Assembly (NCBI GenBank): GCA_025355875.1
Contig: JANXYV010000115.1
Location: forward strand, 1-64,000
From: Prolixibacteraceae bacterium
GTDB lineage: Bacteria; Bacteroidota; Bacteroidia; Bacteroidales; Prolixibacteraceae
Length of the DNA stretch: 64,000 nt
Reading direction: 5' to 3'
In this document: positions 3,693 through 54,567 of the stretch, one piece after another
Layout of the letters: every line of letters starts with the position of its first letter
Numbering within the stretch: position 1 is the first letter of the stretch
Notes under the pieces: model-generated
What the model saw: the letters and a program-made list of their open reading frames with translations, nothing else
The model's database searches: none
Told to the model about the DNA's origin: nothing
Translations under genes and position numbers: made by a program

Positions 3693-4343
3693 TCACATCC
3701 AAATCCACCAGGTGTCAACCAGACCATCACCATAGGCAATCAGGTCGAAGGTGGCATGACCGGCAACAGAGACCAGGGTATTTCCTGAAATTTCTTTCAA
3801 AGTTCCCGAAATGCAACCCACGCCAAAAGTCCAGATAAACAGGTAAAAATAGTCGGTCGGATGCTTCGCAGGCAGAATCAGAAAGATGGAACATTTGTAC
3901 AGGGAATGCAGGGCCGAAGCGCCCAGAATGGAAACAAGGATTCCCATATTTCTTAGCAATCGCTGTAGATAACCCCTGAAAATCAATTCCTCAACGGCAC
4001 CAATAGTCACCGCGATGAAAACAAATCGGGTCAGTCTTTCAGGAAAAAGCGGAATATTCAGATAATGCCTGAAAACGATACTCCAGAATGATCCAATCAG
4101 AATACTAATCACCAGAAAATAGCCGATGTGCCGGGAAATTGATTTCACCCCAAAAAGGTTGATCAGGTCATTTACAGAGCTGATTCCCTGAACCAGGATT
4201 GCCCCGGAAATGCAAATGCCCGCGACGGAAAAACAATTCCACGGAGATTTCAACTGAAGGAAACCCATAAAAATGAGGATACCGCTAAAAAAAATCAGGG
4301 CCCGAAATCCCGCACCCGATTTTGCTGGCTGGATGTTTCCCAT
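3693..4343 (-). CDS. CPBP-family intramembrane metalloprotease
   Basis: A 216-residue integral membrane protein of the CPBP (Abi, CAAX prenyl protease-like) family. Several hydrophobic segments are visible, starting with RALIFFSGILIFMGFL. The first motif is present as AVEELIFRGYLQRLL (EExxxR), the second as ASALHSLYK, and the third as GHATFDLIAYGDG. These residues coordinate the metal or form the active site in the family. It lies 3 bp downstream of the leucine-rich membrane protein gene and is probably co-transcribed with it. The protease substrate is unknown. Confidence 0.85.
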   Translation of the reverse strand: MGNIQPAKSGAGFRALIFFSGILIFMGFLQLKSPWNCFSVAGICISGAILVQGISSVNDLINLFGVKSISRHIGYFLVISILIGSFWSIVFRHYLNIPLFPERLTRFVFIAVTIGAVEELIFRGYLQRLLRNMGILVSILGASALHSLYKCSIFLILPAKHPTDYFYLFIWTFGVGCISGTLKEISGNTLVSVAGHATFDLIAYGDGLVDTWWIWM

Positions 4344-8720: not shown

Positions 8721-9425
8721 ATGAGAAGTTCAATTAAACGACCGGCAGACGACGAATGCGATTTAAGTGGGTTTCAATTATTCAAGAAACTAAGCGAGCA
8801 GGAAATCGCCCAACTCAATTACGACAAAACATGTTCGTTATATAAAAAAGGAAGTATCATTTACCGTGAAGGAAGCCGTTTAACGGGTTTCTATTGCGTT
8901 ACGCGAGGCATTTTAAAGATATTCAAGACTGGTATCGACGGAAAAGAACAAATCATCCGTTTTGCCAAAAAGGGAGACATTATTGCTTATCGCTCGCTCC
9001 TGAGCCAGGAATTGGCATGCACCACAGCCAAGGTCATTGAAGAATCGGTGCTGAGCCACATTCCTTACCAAACGCTTCTCTATCTGATCCAGAATAACTG
9101 GCAGTTTTCTCACCACATGCTCCAGATTGTTTGCAAGGAATTGCGCGAAGCCAACGACTACATTACCGACATCGCCCAAAAAACAGTTCGTGAACGGCTT
9201 GCAGAGGTTTTGTTGCTCCTGAAGGAAAACTTTGAACTCGACAATGCCAACACCCTCCAGATTTCGCTCACCCGCGAAGAACTGGCCAACATGGTAGGAA
9301 CTGCCACCGAAAGCGTAATTCGCCTTCTTTCCGAATTTAAACAGGATAAACTGATCGATCTTCAGGGAAGAAGGATCATTTTCATCAATGTTCCTGGACT
9401 GACTAAAGTAGCGAATTTGTTGTAG
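8721..9425 (+). CDS. Crp/Fnr-family transcriptional regulator
   Basis: A 234-residue regulator with an N-terminal cyclic-nucleotide-binding-like domain (YKKGSIIYREGSRLTGFYCVTRG) and a C-terminal winged helix (LTREELANMVGTATESVIRLLSEF). The sensing domain has no Cys cluster of the FNR [4Fe-4S] type; a few scattered cysteines occur (e.g. EC near residue 13). The cAMP-contact RS/T pair is not evident, so the ligand is unclear. It is divergent from the osmC-araC operon. Confidence 0.92.
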   Translation: MRSSIKRPADDECDLSGFQLFKKLSEQEIAQLNYDKTCSLYKKGSIIYREGSRLTGFYCVTRGILKIFKTGIDGKEQIIRFAKKGDIIAYRSLLSQELACTTAKVIEESVLSHIPYQTLLYLIQNNWQFSHHMLQIVCKELREANDYITDIAQKTVRERLAEVLLLLKENFELDNANTLQISLTREELANMVGTATESVIRLLSEFKQDKLIDLQGRRIIFINVPGLTKVANLL

Positions 9426-9447
9426 CTGCAATCAAACTTTAGATATC

Positions 9448-50859: not shown

Positions 50860-50930
50860 GGTCGGTTGGCCGAGTGGTTAGGCAGCGGTCTGCAAAACCG
50901 TGTACGGCGGTTCGAATCCGCCACTGACCT
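50860..50930 (+). tRNA. tRNA-Cys (anticodon GCA)
   Basis: A complete cloverleaf: acceptor GGTCGGT/ACTGACC, anticodon stem GCGGT/ACCGT with loop CTGCAAA (anticodon GCA), T stem GGCGG/CCGCC with loop TTCGAAT, and U73 as discriminator, typical of tRNA-Cys. CCA is not encoded. Its 3' end is the attachment site of the integrative element that follows; the tRNA itself stays intact. Confidence 0.95.
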
Positions 50931-50936
50931 CATATT
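50919..50936. repeat. attL, left direct repeat of the integrative element
   Basis: CGCCACTGACCTCATATT, the 3' end of tRNA-Cys plus six bases beyond. The identical 18 bp recur at 54542-54559, and the flanking bases differ on both sides. Confidence 0.9.
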
Positions 50937-50962
50937 CTTACTTTTTTAGAATTTGGTAAAAC

Positions 50963-50991
50963 AAAAAACCCTTGATTTTCAAGGGTTTTTT
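50963..50991 (+). terminator. Terminator just inside the element's left end
   Basis: AAAAAACCCTTGA / TCAAGGGTTTTTT, a perfect 13-bp stem with a 3-nt loop. It lies after tRNA-Cys and probably stops tRNA transcription before the integrase gene. It resembles the host terminator at 54568. Confidence 0.85.
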
Positions 50992-51103
50992 GTTTTTATA
51001 GTTTCAGGAAATAAAAATAAATTGCAAAAAGAAAAGAAAATACCGCCCCCCAGACCGCCCCTGTAAATATTTATTGTAAATTGCTGTATCTTAATCTAAA
51101 GTT

Positions 51104-52513
51104 ATGGCACAGGTTACACCACAATTCAAACTTAAAGACCAAAAGTCTATAAATGAAACACTTATATACTTAATTGTCTATTATAATAAAGAAAGATTCA
51201 AGTATTCAACCGGGTTACTTATTCGCCCCGACCTTTGGAATAGTGACGAAAACCGCCCCCAGACGAAAAATGATCAGGGGCGGTCAGTTACAATGACCAA
51301 AGAGGAAATTAAACAGGCTGCAATAATTGACAACGAACTAGACCGATTTAAGACCGAAACCGCCCGTATTTTCAACTATTTCAGTTATCAGCTTATACAA
51401 CCCGCAAACGAACTGTTAAAGATTGAATACGACAAAGTATTTAGACCGACTGACCCCGAAAAGAAAACGACCGCCCCCGAAAAAATTAACCTGAATCAAT
51501 ACATTGAACAATTCATTCAGGAAATTAAGACCGGGAAACGAACAACGGAAAACGGAACACGATACACCGCCGGAACCATTAAAAACTATTTGGGGTTTCA
51601 GGCTATGTTTAATCAATTTCAGTTAGACCCCAGAGATAGACAAAATTCAGAGGAACGGAAAAAACGGAAGGACAACAAACCCAAAGAACCAAAATTCAGA
51701 AAGAGAAATTTTGATTTTGAAGATATTACCATTGACTTTTACGATAAATATGTATCGTTTTTCAATGCAATGAACTATTCACCCAACACAGTAGGCCGCC
51801 ACATCAAGAACCTGAAAGTAATAATGAAAGCCGCCGGAGAAGATAAACTACACGAGAATAAAGACATTGACCGTAAAAAATTTAAAGTTATCACTACTGA
51901 AGTACACCCGATATACTTAACACAATCGGAAGTTGAAACCCTGTTTAATCTGGATTTGTCGGACAATAAACCCCTTGATATTGCCCGTGATATTTTCCTG
52001 ATTGGTTGCTATACCGCCCAACGTTTCAGCGATTACAGCCGAATAAACGCCAAACACATTAAAGAAGTAAAAGGCGGAAAATTTATAGAACTCATTCAAA
52101 AAAAGACCGGGGAACGTGTCACAATACCAATCAGGCCGGAACTGGAAACGATTTTAAAGAAATACGATTACAACCCACCACACACCCACGAACAAAAGGC
52201 CAATGAACGGATAAAATTAGTTTGTGAAAAGGCTGATATAAAAGAACTGATTGAGATTGAGGAAATAAAAGGCAGTTTAAAAGTCGCACAGAGCAAACCG
52301 AAACACGAACTGATAAAAACCCACACCGCCCGGCGAACGGGTGCAACCCTAATGTTTTTGGCCGGAATACCTGCTATTTCAATAATGAAAATCACAGGCC
52401 ACCGCACGGAAAGAGAATTTCTAAAGTATATCCGTGTAACCAAAGAAGAAAACGCCACATTGCTAATGAATCACCCCTATTTCAAAGGAACACCTTTAAA
52501 AATTGTAAAATAA
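51104..52513 (+). CDS. Tyrosine recombinase (integrase)
   Basis: A 469-residue site-specific recombinase of the phage integrase family, as carried by Bacteroidota elements. An N-terminal arm-binding domain (~1-110) precedes a core SAM-like domain (~150-270) and the catalytic domain. Catalytic residues are seen as TAQRFSDYSRI (Arg), KKTGERV (Lys), HTARR (His, Arg), GHR (His) and the nucleophile Tyr in FLKYI near the C-terminus. It lies next to attL. The reading frame is intact, so the element may still excise. ACCGCCC occurs unusually often in this gene and at the element ends. Confidence 0.95.
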   Translation: MAQVTPQFKLKDQKSINETLIYLIVYYNKERFKYSTGLLIRPDLWNSDENRPQTKNDQGRSVTMTKEEIKQAAIIDNELDRFKTETARIFNYFSYQLIQPANELLKIEYDKVFRPTDPEKKTTAPEKINLNQYIEQFIQEIKTGKRTTENGTRYTAGTIKNYLGFQAMFNQFQLDPRDRQNSEERKKRKDNKPKEPKFRKRNFDFEDITIDFYDKYVSFFNAMNYSPNTVGRHIKNLKVIMKAAGEDKLHENKDIDRKKFKVITTEVHPIYLTQSEVETLFNLDLSDNKPLDIARDIFLIGCYTAQRFSDYSRINAKHIKEVKGGKFIELIQKKTGERVTIPIRPELETILKKYDYNPPHTHEQKANERIKLVCEKADIKELIEIEEIKGSLKVAQSKPKHELIKTHTARRTGATLMFLAGIPAISIMKITGHRTEREFLKYIRVTKEENATLLMNHPYFKGTPLKIVK

Positions 52514-52541
52514 TATTAACCCCCCCCTAAAAACAAACGAC

Positions 52542-52718
52542 ATGAAAAACTTAAAATCTCTAATTATCAGCAACATTGACGAAGTGATTAACCTTTATGA
52601 ACCGTATTTAAACGAACTTTCAGAAGTTGAAAAAGAAGATATTGAACAATTAAAAATCTGTTCTATGATACTTTGTAGTAAAAATAAGTCTTTCAATTCT
52701 GATTTTAAAATTTCATAA
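52542..52718 (+). CDS. 58-aa ORF of the element
   Basis: An ORF too short for the track, starting 28 bp after the integrase stop. It is acidic and helical (SEVEKEDIEQLK, NIDEVINLY). It could be an excision helper or regulator by position, but nothing in the sequence identifies it. An eight-C run (52520-52527) lies in the spacer before its ATG. Confidence 0.45.
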   Translation: MKNLKSLIISNIDEVINLYEPYLNELSEVEKEDIEQLKICSMILCSKNKSFNSDFKIS

Positions 52719-52762
52719 TCAGAACAATAAACTAAGGATTTTTTAATAGAATAGAACCTAGC

Positions 52763-53152
52763 GGAAACAACTCAGGCCGGGAACCATTGATCAGGAACAA
52801 CAGATCAGGCCACCGGGAACAATCAATCAACCTGAATTGAATCACTCATTCGATTGCATACTGGTATCCATCGAAAGGAACAGGCCGTCGTCGCACGGAG
52901 CTTTCGCCTGATGGATGGATGCCACCGGAAACAACTCAGGCCGGGAACCATTGATCAGGAACAACAGATCAGGCCAAAGGGAACAACCAATCAACCTGAA
53001 TTGAATCACTCATTCGATTGCATACTGGTATCCATCGAAAGGAACAGGCCGTTGTCGCACGAAGCTTTCACCTGATGGATGGATGCCACCGGAAACAACT
53101 CAGGCCGGGAACCAATGGAAGGAACAACAGATCAGGCCAAAGGGCCTGAATT
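52763..53152. repeat. 164-bp direct tandem repeat, about 2.4 copies
   Basis: Copies start at 52763, 52927 and 53091, giving an exact 164-bp period; the third is partial and loses about 13 bp near its end. The first two differ at only a few positions. The period is not a multiple of three, so the frames change between copies and coding is unlikely. Each unit holds ATCCATC / GATGGAT around GAAAG / CTTTC, a hairpin-like pair. GC content is visibly higher than in the neighbouring genes of the element. The surrounding 52719-53298 has no supported gene. Confidence 0.9.
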
Positions 53153-53298
53153 GTATTAATGGAAGGAAACCCACCAACAGGCTGAAACACCTTAACAGCA
53201 CGAACCTAGTTTCCCATCCTGTAAATAATAAAACGGATAAGCTGCGAATTGAAAAGAAAGTTGTAAATTGTTTAATCTTTTCACTTAAAACAATTTGA

Positions 53299-53751
53299 AT
53301 GAAACTGTTAATCATTGCCTTTCTTTCGACCCTTTTTAATGTTTCAGCAGTAGGACAAAACGAGATCAAGGAAATTCCAAAAGGGACTACTAAAATAATA
53401 GTTGAAACGAATCAAAATCAAGCTGAAAACTTTAAACAAGTATTGAACTTACTTTTAGATAATGATTTTGAAATTGAAAAAAAGGATTTAGAATTACTCA
53501 CAATAAAATCAGGTATAAAACCACTTCCAAAATCAGGTAACTTTTATCTAAATTTTAGATTTAAGGATGATAAAATAGAGATAACCGGAAAATTTCATTC
53601 AGGAATTAGTATTGAATTATCCAATGTAAAGTCTGAAGATAATATTGAAACAATTATCAATAAAGGGATGAAAGGTTCTATTTATTATACGAGTTTTTTA
53701 GAGATGTATAAATTTTCTAAACTGTTAGGGAACAATCAAACATTTCAATAA
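53299..53751 (+). CDS. Small secreted protein of unknown function
   Basis: A 150-residue protein with signal peptide IIAFLSTLFNVSAVG. The mature part reads like a Bacteroidota secreted family with the pattern TTKIIVETNQNQAENFK followed by a helix and DFEIEKKDLELLTIKSG, perhaps a beta-alpha-beta fold. It is cargo of the integrative element, between the tandem repeat and hicAB. No function can be assigned. Confidence 0.6.
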   Translation: MKLLIIAFLSTLFNVSAVGQNEIKEIPKGTTKIIVETNQNQAENFKQVLNLLLDNDFEIEKKDLELLTIKSGIKPLPKSGNFYLNFRFKDDKIEITGKFHSGISIELSNVKSEDNIETIINKGMKGSIYYTSFLEMYKFSKLLGNNQTFQ

Positions 53752-53793
53752 ATAGAAAACTGACAAATCATTGACGTGTTTTTAAATACTACG

Positions 53794-53824
53794 TTTGTAA
53801 ATGGTATATAATTATATACCTTTG
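53794..53824 (+). promoter_or_regulatory. hicAB promoter with operator palindrome in its spacer
   Basis: TTTG (53794-53797), a 19-bp spacer and TACCTTTG (53817-53824) form a textbook Bacteroidota promoter. The spacer and -7 start together hold GGTATATAATTATATACC (53803-53820), a perfect 18-bp palindrome, the likely HicB binding site. A start site near 53831 precedes the hicA TTG at 53850. Confidence 0.8.
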
Positions 53825-53849
53825 TGATGTAATAAAAACAGTTGAAAAA

Positions 53850-54032
53850 TTGAAATATTCAGAGTTTCACCGAAAGATTATAAAAAATGGATGGAAATTT
53901 AGCCATGCCGAGGGCAGCCATTATTTTTATATGAAAGATGGAATTCTTTCAGAGCCAGTCCCTTTTCATGGAAGTAAAGAGTTTTATGAACCGCTTAGAA
54001 TTAAAATTGCAAAGAATATGGGGCTGAAATAA
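53850..54032 (+). CDS. hicA: HicA-family mRNA interferase toxin
   Basis: A 60-residue toxin with the dsRNA-binding-like fold: KYSEFHRKIIKNGWKF, then the catalytic histidine in AEGSHYFY, and LRIKIAKNMGL at the end. It cleaves mRNA. The start is TTG, the only start preserving the family N-terminus. It precedes hicB by 22 bp, the usual order. It likely stabilises the element in the host. Confidence 0.9.
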   Translation: MKYSEFHRKIIKNGWKFSHAEGSHYFYMKDGILSEPVPFHGSKEFYEPLRIKIAKNMGLK

Positions 54033-54054
54033 TTCCAATAAAAAAAATACAAGC

Positions 54055-54462
54055 ATGGAAAAATTAATTATTCAAATTGGAGCAAGTTCAAATCATTTTG
54101 GCGGTTTCGCAGTTAATTGTGATGGAATCAATGGAGCTGGAAATACCATTGAGGAATGCAAGGCGAATATATTGGAAGGGTTAAAATTAATGGTAAAGAA
54201 TAGTGAAAAAAGTTACTGCAAAGCCCCCCAATGGTTAATCGACGGTGATTACGAAATTGAATACAGGTACGATACCCAAAGTATATTGAACCATTATTCA
54301 AACGTATTTACAAAACCTGCATTAGAAAAATTAACCGGAATCAACCAGAAACAATTACATCATTACGCCACCGGGTTGAAAAAACCACGTTTGGAACAAC
54401 GGAAAAAGATTGAGAACGCCCTTCATAATTTAGGGAATGAACTGTTGACCGTCCAACTGTAA
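54055..54462 (+). CDS. hicB: HicB-family antitoxin
   Basis: A 135-residue antitoxin. Residues ~1-60 are the degenerate RNase H-like HicB fold (GGFAVNCDGINGAGNTIEECKANILEGL), and the C-terminus is a helix-turn-helix (LEKLTGINQKQLHHYATGLKKP). It neutralises HicA and should repress the promoter at 53794 through the palindrome there. Confidence 0.9.
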   Translation: MEKLIIQIGASSNHFGGFAVNCDGINGAGNTIEECKANILEGLKLMVKNSEKSYCKAPQWLIDGDYEIEYRYDTQSILNHYSNVFTKPALEKLTGINQKQLHHYATGLKKPRLEQRKKIENALHNLGNELLTVQL

Positions 54463-54541
54463 AATATTAAACCGCCCCTGTGACCGCCCCTATGTTTTAA
54501 TATATTTATAAAACACTGATAATCATTGGTCAGTTGAGATA

Positions 54542-54559
54542 CGCCACTGACCTCATATT
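54542..54559. repeat. attR, right direct repeat of the integrative element
   Basis: CGCCACTGACCTCATATT, identical to attL. The preceding two ACCGCCCCT copies at 54472-54491 mirror a similar pair inside the left end at 51045-51062. Confidence 0.9.
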
Positions 54560-54567
54560 ATGCGAGA

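Follow-up and report, generated by a model that had tools for sequence, protein, structure and literature searches.

A small integrative element in the window (the whole 64,000-nt stretch of DNA analysed here) carries a tandemly repeated block between its integrase gene and its cargo, and the question raised by this locus is what the block is and whether it has a function of its own. TRF located an array of period 164 with 2.3 copies and 95% matches at 52762-53144 (score 696), in agreement with the sequence-only reading, which had placed the starts of the copies at 52763, 52927 and 53091. Features are given below on the + strand. Repeat unit 1 (52763-52926) was delimited by TRF and by comparison of the copies, and repeat unit 2 (52927-53090) differs from it at 6 of 164 positions (96% identity), so the first two copies are nearly identical, as first described. 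Because of these six differences, the array, which lies on one draft contig, is not an exact assembly duplicate. The third unit (53091-53201) is partial and degenerate: its first ~50-55 nt match, ~14 nt are then deleted and a faint similarity runs on to ~53201, with homology clear up to ~53154. The GC content is 49.8% within 52762-53201 and 26.6% and 28.9% in the flanks, which confirms the elevated GC that had been noticed by eye. The period is not divisible by 3 and thus breaks the reading frame, and no ORF in the array gave a significant match to Pfam or NCBIfam. A coding remnant was rejected on the latter ground, and the description of the array as noncoding stands. The array as such goes far beyond what chance would produce.

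The array is contained in a complete 3.6-kb integrative element (50860-54560) at the 3' end of a tRNA-Cys gene. The integration target, tRNA-Cys(GCA), was identified by ARAGORN at 50860-50931. Two direct repeats identical at 20 of 21 positions form the att cores, ATCCGCCACTGACCTCATATT on the tRNA side (50916-50936), with the same layout in the related element L018, and ATACGCCACTGACCTCATATT at the distal end (54539-54559). A repeat search revealed paired repeats with a putative arm-type role at the left end (ACCGCCCCCCAGACCGCCCCT, 51040-51062) and the right end (AACCGCCCCTGTGACCGCCCC, 54470-54490). The gene at 51104-52513 encodes a tyrosine recombinase with Arm-DNA-bind_5, Phage_int_SAM_5 and Phage_integrase domains (Pfam), and is followed by a 58-aa ORF (52542-52718), a doubtful gene without significant family match. 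Located 3' of the array are the genes for a 150-aa protein with a signal-like N-terminus (53299-53751), a HicA-family toxin (53850-54032, Pfam PF07927) and a HicB-type antitoxin (54055-54462), the last sharing 43% identity with a HicB annotated on a Parabacteroides plasmid; all genes of the element are on the + strand. The 150-aa protein had no Pfam match of its own. It is DUF4468-like by its position and start region, and shares 41% identity with an ORF adjoining tRNA-Cys in another related element, L044.

The motif RACCGCCCC had six matches in the window, all within the element, against 0.65 expected by chance. The arm-type motif GACCGCCCC was present at both element ends and within the integrase gene and absent from the array, and the array was therefore rejected as an integrase arm or att site. 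Some of the RACCGCCCC matches, in both orientations, are found inside the integrase gene at 51251-51477. With a tRNA gene as its target, an integrase, and att repeats at either end, the surrounding element belongs to the tRNA-inserted class, for which the 10K island of Riemerella anatipestifer, a tRNA-inserted integrative element of Bacteroidota, is a comparison case (PMC6764341). It shares with Bacteroidota tRNA-inserted elements of the Arm-DNA-bind_5/SAM_5 type an integrase beside the tRNA gene, direct repeats at the ends and cargo between them, but differs in being only 3.6 kb long, in lacking an excisionase-like gene and in holding the array.

In L018, from a congeneric genome, an element of like kind occupies the same tRNA, and its integrase is 77% identical to that in the window. 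DNA homology between the two elements begins upstream of the tRNA and ends at the integrase stop codon. A run of C lies just past this codon (52514-52530), where the boundary with respect to L018 is sharp. Downstream of the integrase, L018 encodes in order a 239-aa protein, a helix-turn-helix excisionase-like protein, proteins of 138, 444 and 92 aa, and a DUF4468 protein. Five of these genes, the excisionase-like one included, are missing upstream of the cargo in the element in the window, which is probably non-autonomous. The elements measure 3.6 kb in the window and 5.7 kb in L018. The 444-aa protein of L018 (5134-6468) matched nothing in Pfam or PHROG, and from its position we suspect that it may be a replication protein. 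The gene order surrounding it resembles that in L044 and L011. Paired arm-type repeats occur at both ends of L018 as well (~9400-9440 and ~3950-3980), with the core GACCCC instead of GACCGCCCC; since they differ despite the 77% identity of the integrases, it is possible that arm sites and arm domains co-vary. Related integrases are also encoded at other loci, close to tRNA-Cys, tRNA-Phe and further tRNA genes, and no comparable array was detected in 14 loci carrying related integrases. With the integrase as query, no relative was found in viral contigs and one distant relative was found in genome contigs.

The repeat unit is itself repetitive. Its first ~70 nt are made up of diverged modules built on GGAAC and CAGGCC. 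As compared with dinucleotide shuffles, and for motifs picked after inspection, GGAAC/GGAAAC occurs 5 times per unit (0.6 expected) and CAGGCC 3 times (0.04 expected). The 6-mer repetition of the unit also exceeds that of dinucleotide shuffles (P = 0.0005). The short modules are unevenly spaced, at 14, 22 and 61 nt. Because the unit is built from such short diverged modules, the best reading is a nested repeat of the sort expected from recurrent slippage or unequal recombination.

The unit was found at a single locus in its own genome. BLAST detected no homologue of it in 140 genomes of the family, 393 of the order, 385 of the class and 396 of the phylum, with few candidates scored per genome, so that more remote homologues may have escaped detection. 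Phages and plasmids yielded no homologue either, nor did exact patterns in viral contigs. Beyond the array, BLAST gave merely short, marginal matches, and the one inspected was inside a coding gene. A profile built from the three units (R1) produced 10 weak matches in the family outside the array, which is the chance level at that threshold; two of these were compared with ORF lists and both fell inside genes. A unit lacking conservation and compensatory change, which the sequence-only reading had named as the outcome that would speak against it, is largely what these samples from family to phylum yielded.

We consider it probable that the array arose by nested tandem duplication within a reduced integrative element and most likely has no specific function. 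The divergence of the copies, the single locus, the internally repetitive unit, the truncation of copy 3, the lack of homologues in the samples searched, the end of homology with L018 at the integrase stop codon and the lack of an array in related loci all argue for this explanation. We infer the following course. Within a GC-rich noncoding block of ~440 bp between the integrase and the cargo of the small element, short GGAAC/CAGGCC modules would first have been duplicated in tandem, and the whole 164-bp segment would then have been duplicated once or twice, either through slippage during replication or through unequal recombination at short homologies. The first two copies would be young and the third decaying, and the block would occupy the place of the excisionase-like and other genes of the relatives. 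Among the interpretations offered at first, recombination debris fits best, while small-RNA, iteron, packaging and antisense roles found no support. The statement that the array fits no feature type was too strong, as tandem duplications of noncoding DNA are an established kind of feature. Bacterial noncoding VNTRs or minisatellites resemble the array in their head-to-tail arrangement, noncoding nature, few copies, single locus, nested modules and degenerate edge copy, but the array differs from them in its long period (164 bp) and its location in a mobile element. Two observations weigh against a duplication without function, namely the hairpin pairs kept in copies 1 and 2 and the sharp GC step together with the flanking GAACCTAG.

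The second of these observations allows an inserted unit of outside origin. The 440-bp block at 52762-53201 would then have arrived as a small non-autonomous insertion, bringing its repeat from another source and duplicating 8 bp of target, GAACCTAG; we regard this as unlikely. GAACCTAG occurs twice in the window: at 52754-52761 it abuts the first repeat, as a possible target-site duplicate, and at 53202-53209 it recurs to the right of the array. The 8-bp sequence recurred in 57 of 20,000 shuffles of 53145-53300, and the GC content rises from 27-29% outside the block to 50% inside it. However, terminal inverted repeats, expected of an insertion sequence or MITE, were not found at the block, and the block has no second copy in the genome. 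Moreover, the right-hand GAACCTAG may belong to the degenerate third unit (GCACGAACCT, compared with GCACGAAGCT in unit 2).

The hairpin pairs would suit an array that is a structured noncoding RNA transcribed from the + strand, or a regulator of the downstream cargo or HicAB genes, and we judge this improbable. The pairs ATCCATC/GATGGAT and GAAAG/CTTTC, noticed at first sight, are indeed present and give a potential long + strand RNA hairpin in unit 1 (TGGTATCCATC...GATGGATGCCA, 52862-52924) and, with the same pairs, in unit 2 (53026-53088). For chosen 70-nt windows the z scores were -2.9 and -3.5, but an equally good 70-nt window was found in 14/150 and 21/150 shuffled units (9% and 14%; best window, either strand), so that allowing for window choice leaves the hairpin unexceptional. 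Three changes separate units 1 and 2 in the hairpin half; two are in pairs and leave the pairing intact and the third is unpaired, a comparison of two sequences with tiny numbers that is no test of conservation. The position of the array upstream of the cargo genes on the same strand would also suit a regulator. On the other hand, Rfam models gave no hit across 52740-53230, even at E values up to 5, and a promoter scan of the array was at chance level, with no Bacteroidota-type promoter found within it. Terminator-like sites were weak, and a stem at 53132-53149 sits within the third copy and is followed by a poor T tail. No homologue with which to look for covariation was found in the samples searched. 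The proposal of a small-RNA array accordingly fails on promoter, Rfam match and conservation as well as on the corrected hairpin. A structured RNA peculiar to this small-element lineage, encoded or controlled by the array and acting for example as a regulator of the cargo or of mobilisation driven by a related helper element, is very improbable.

A replication origin or iteron-like protein-binding array, with the GGAAC/CAGGCC modules as putative sites, also seems hardly credible. The modules are enriched in the unit, but their spacing is irregular, and iteron origins are expected to have regular repeats of ~17-22 bp, far shorter than the main period of the array. No replication gene was recognised among the ORFs of the element, a relative with an additional gene module has no such array, and the arm-type motif is found outside the array. 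Nothing was found in support of a packaging or antisense signal. A type III toxin-antitoxin system (ToxIN and relatives), in which a promoter precedes the repeats and a hairpin terminator follows them (PMC8860590), is resembled in having tandem repeats upstream of a ~150-aa protein gene, but was rejected because the product of 53299-53751 has no match to the ToxN family of endoribonucleases and resembles secreted DUF4468-type cargo proteins, no promoter beyond chance was found, and no good terminator lies between the array and the downstream gene. The RNA, origin and toxin-antitoxin explanations are thus disfavoured.

By itself, a nested duplication of this kind matters little. The case illustrates how a small element can retain its ends, integrase and cargo although an excisionase-like gene and four further genes present in a close relative are missing from it. 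Should the array prove to have a function, it would represent a new repeat-based control element in elements of this sort.
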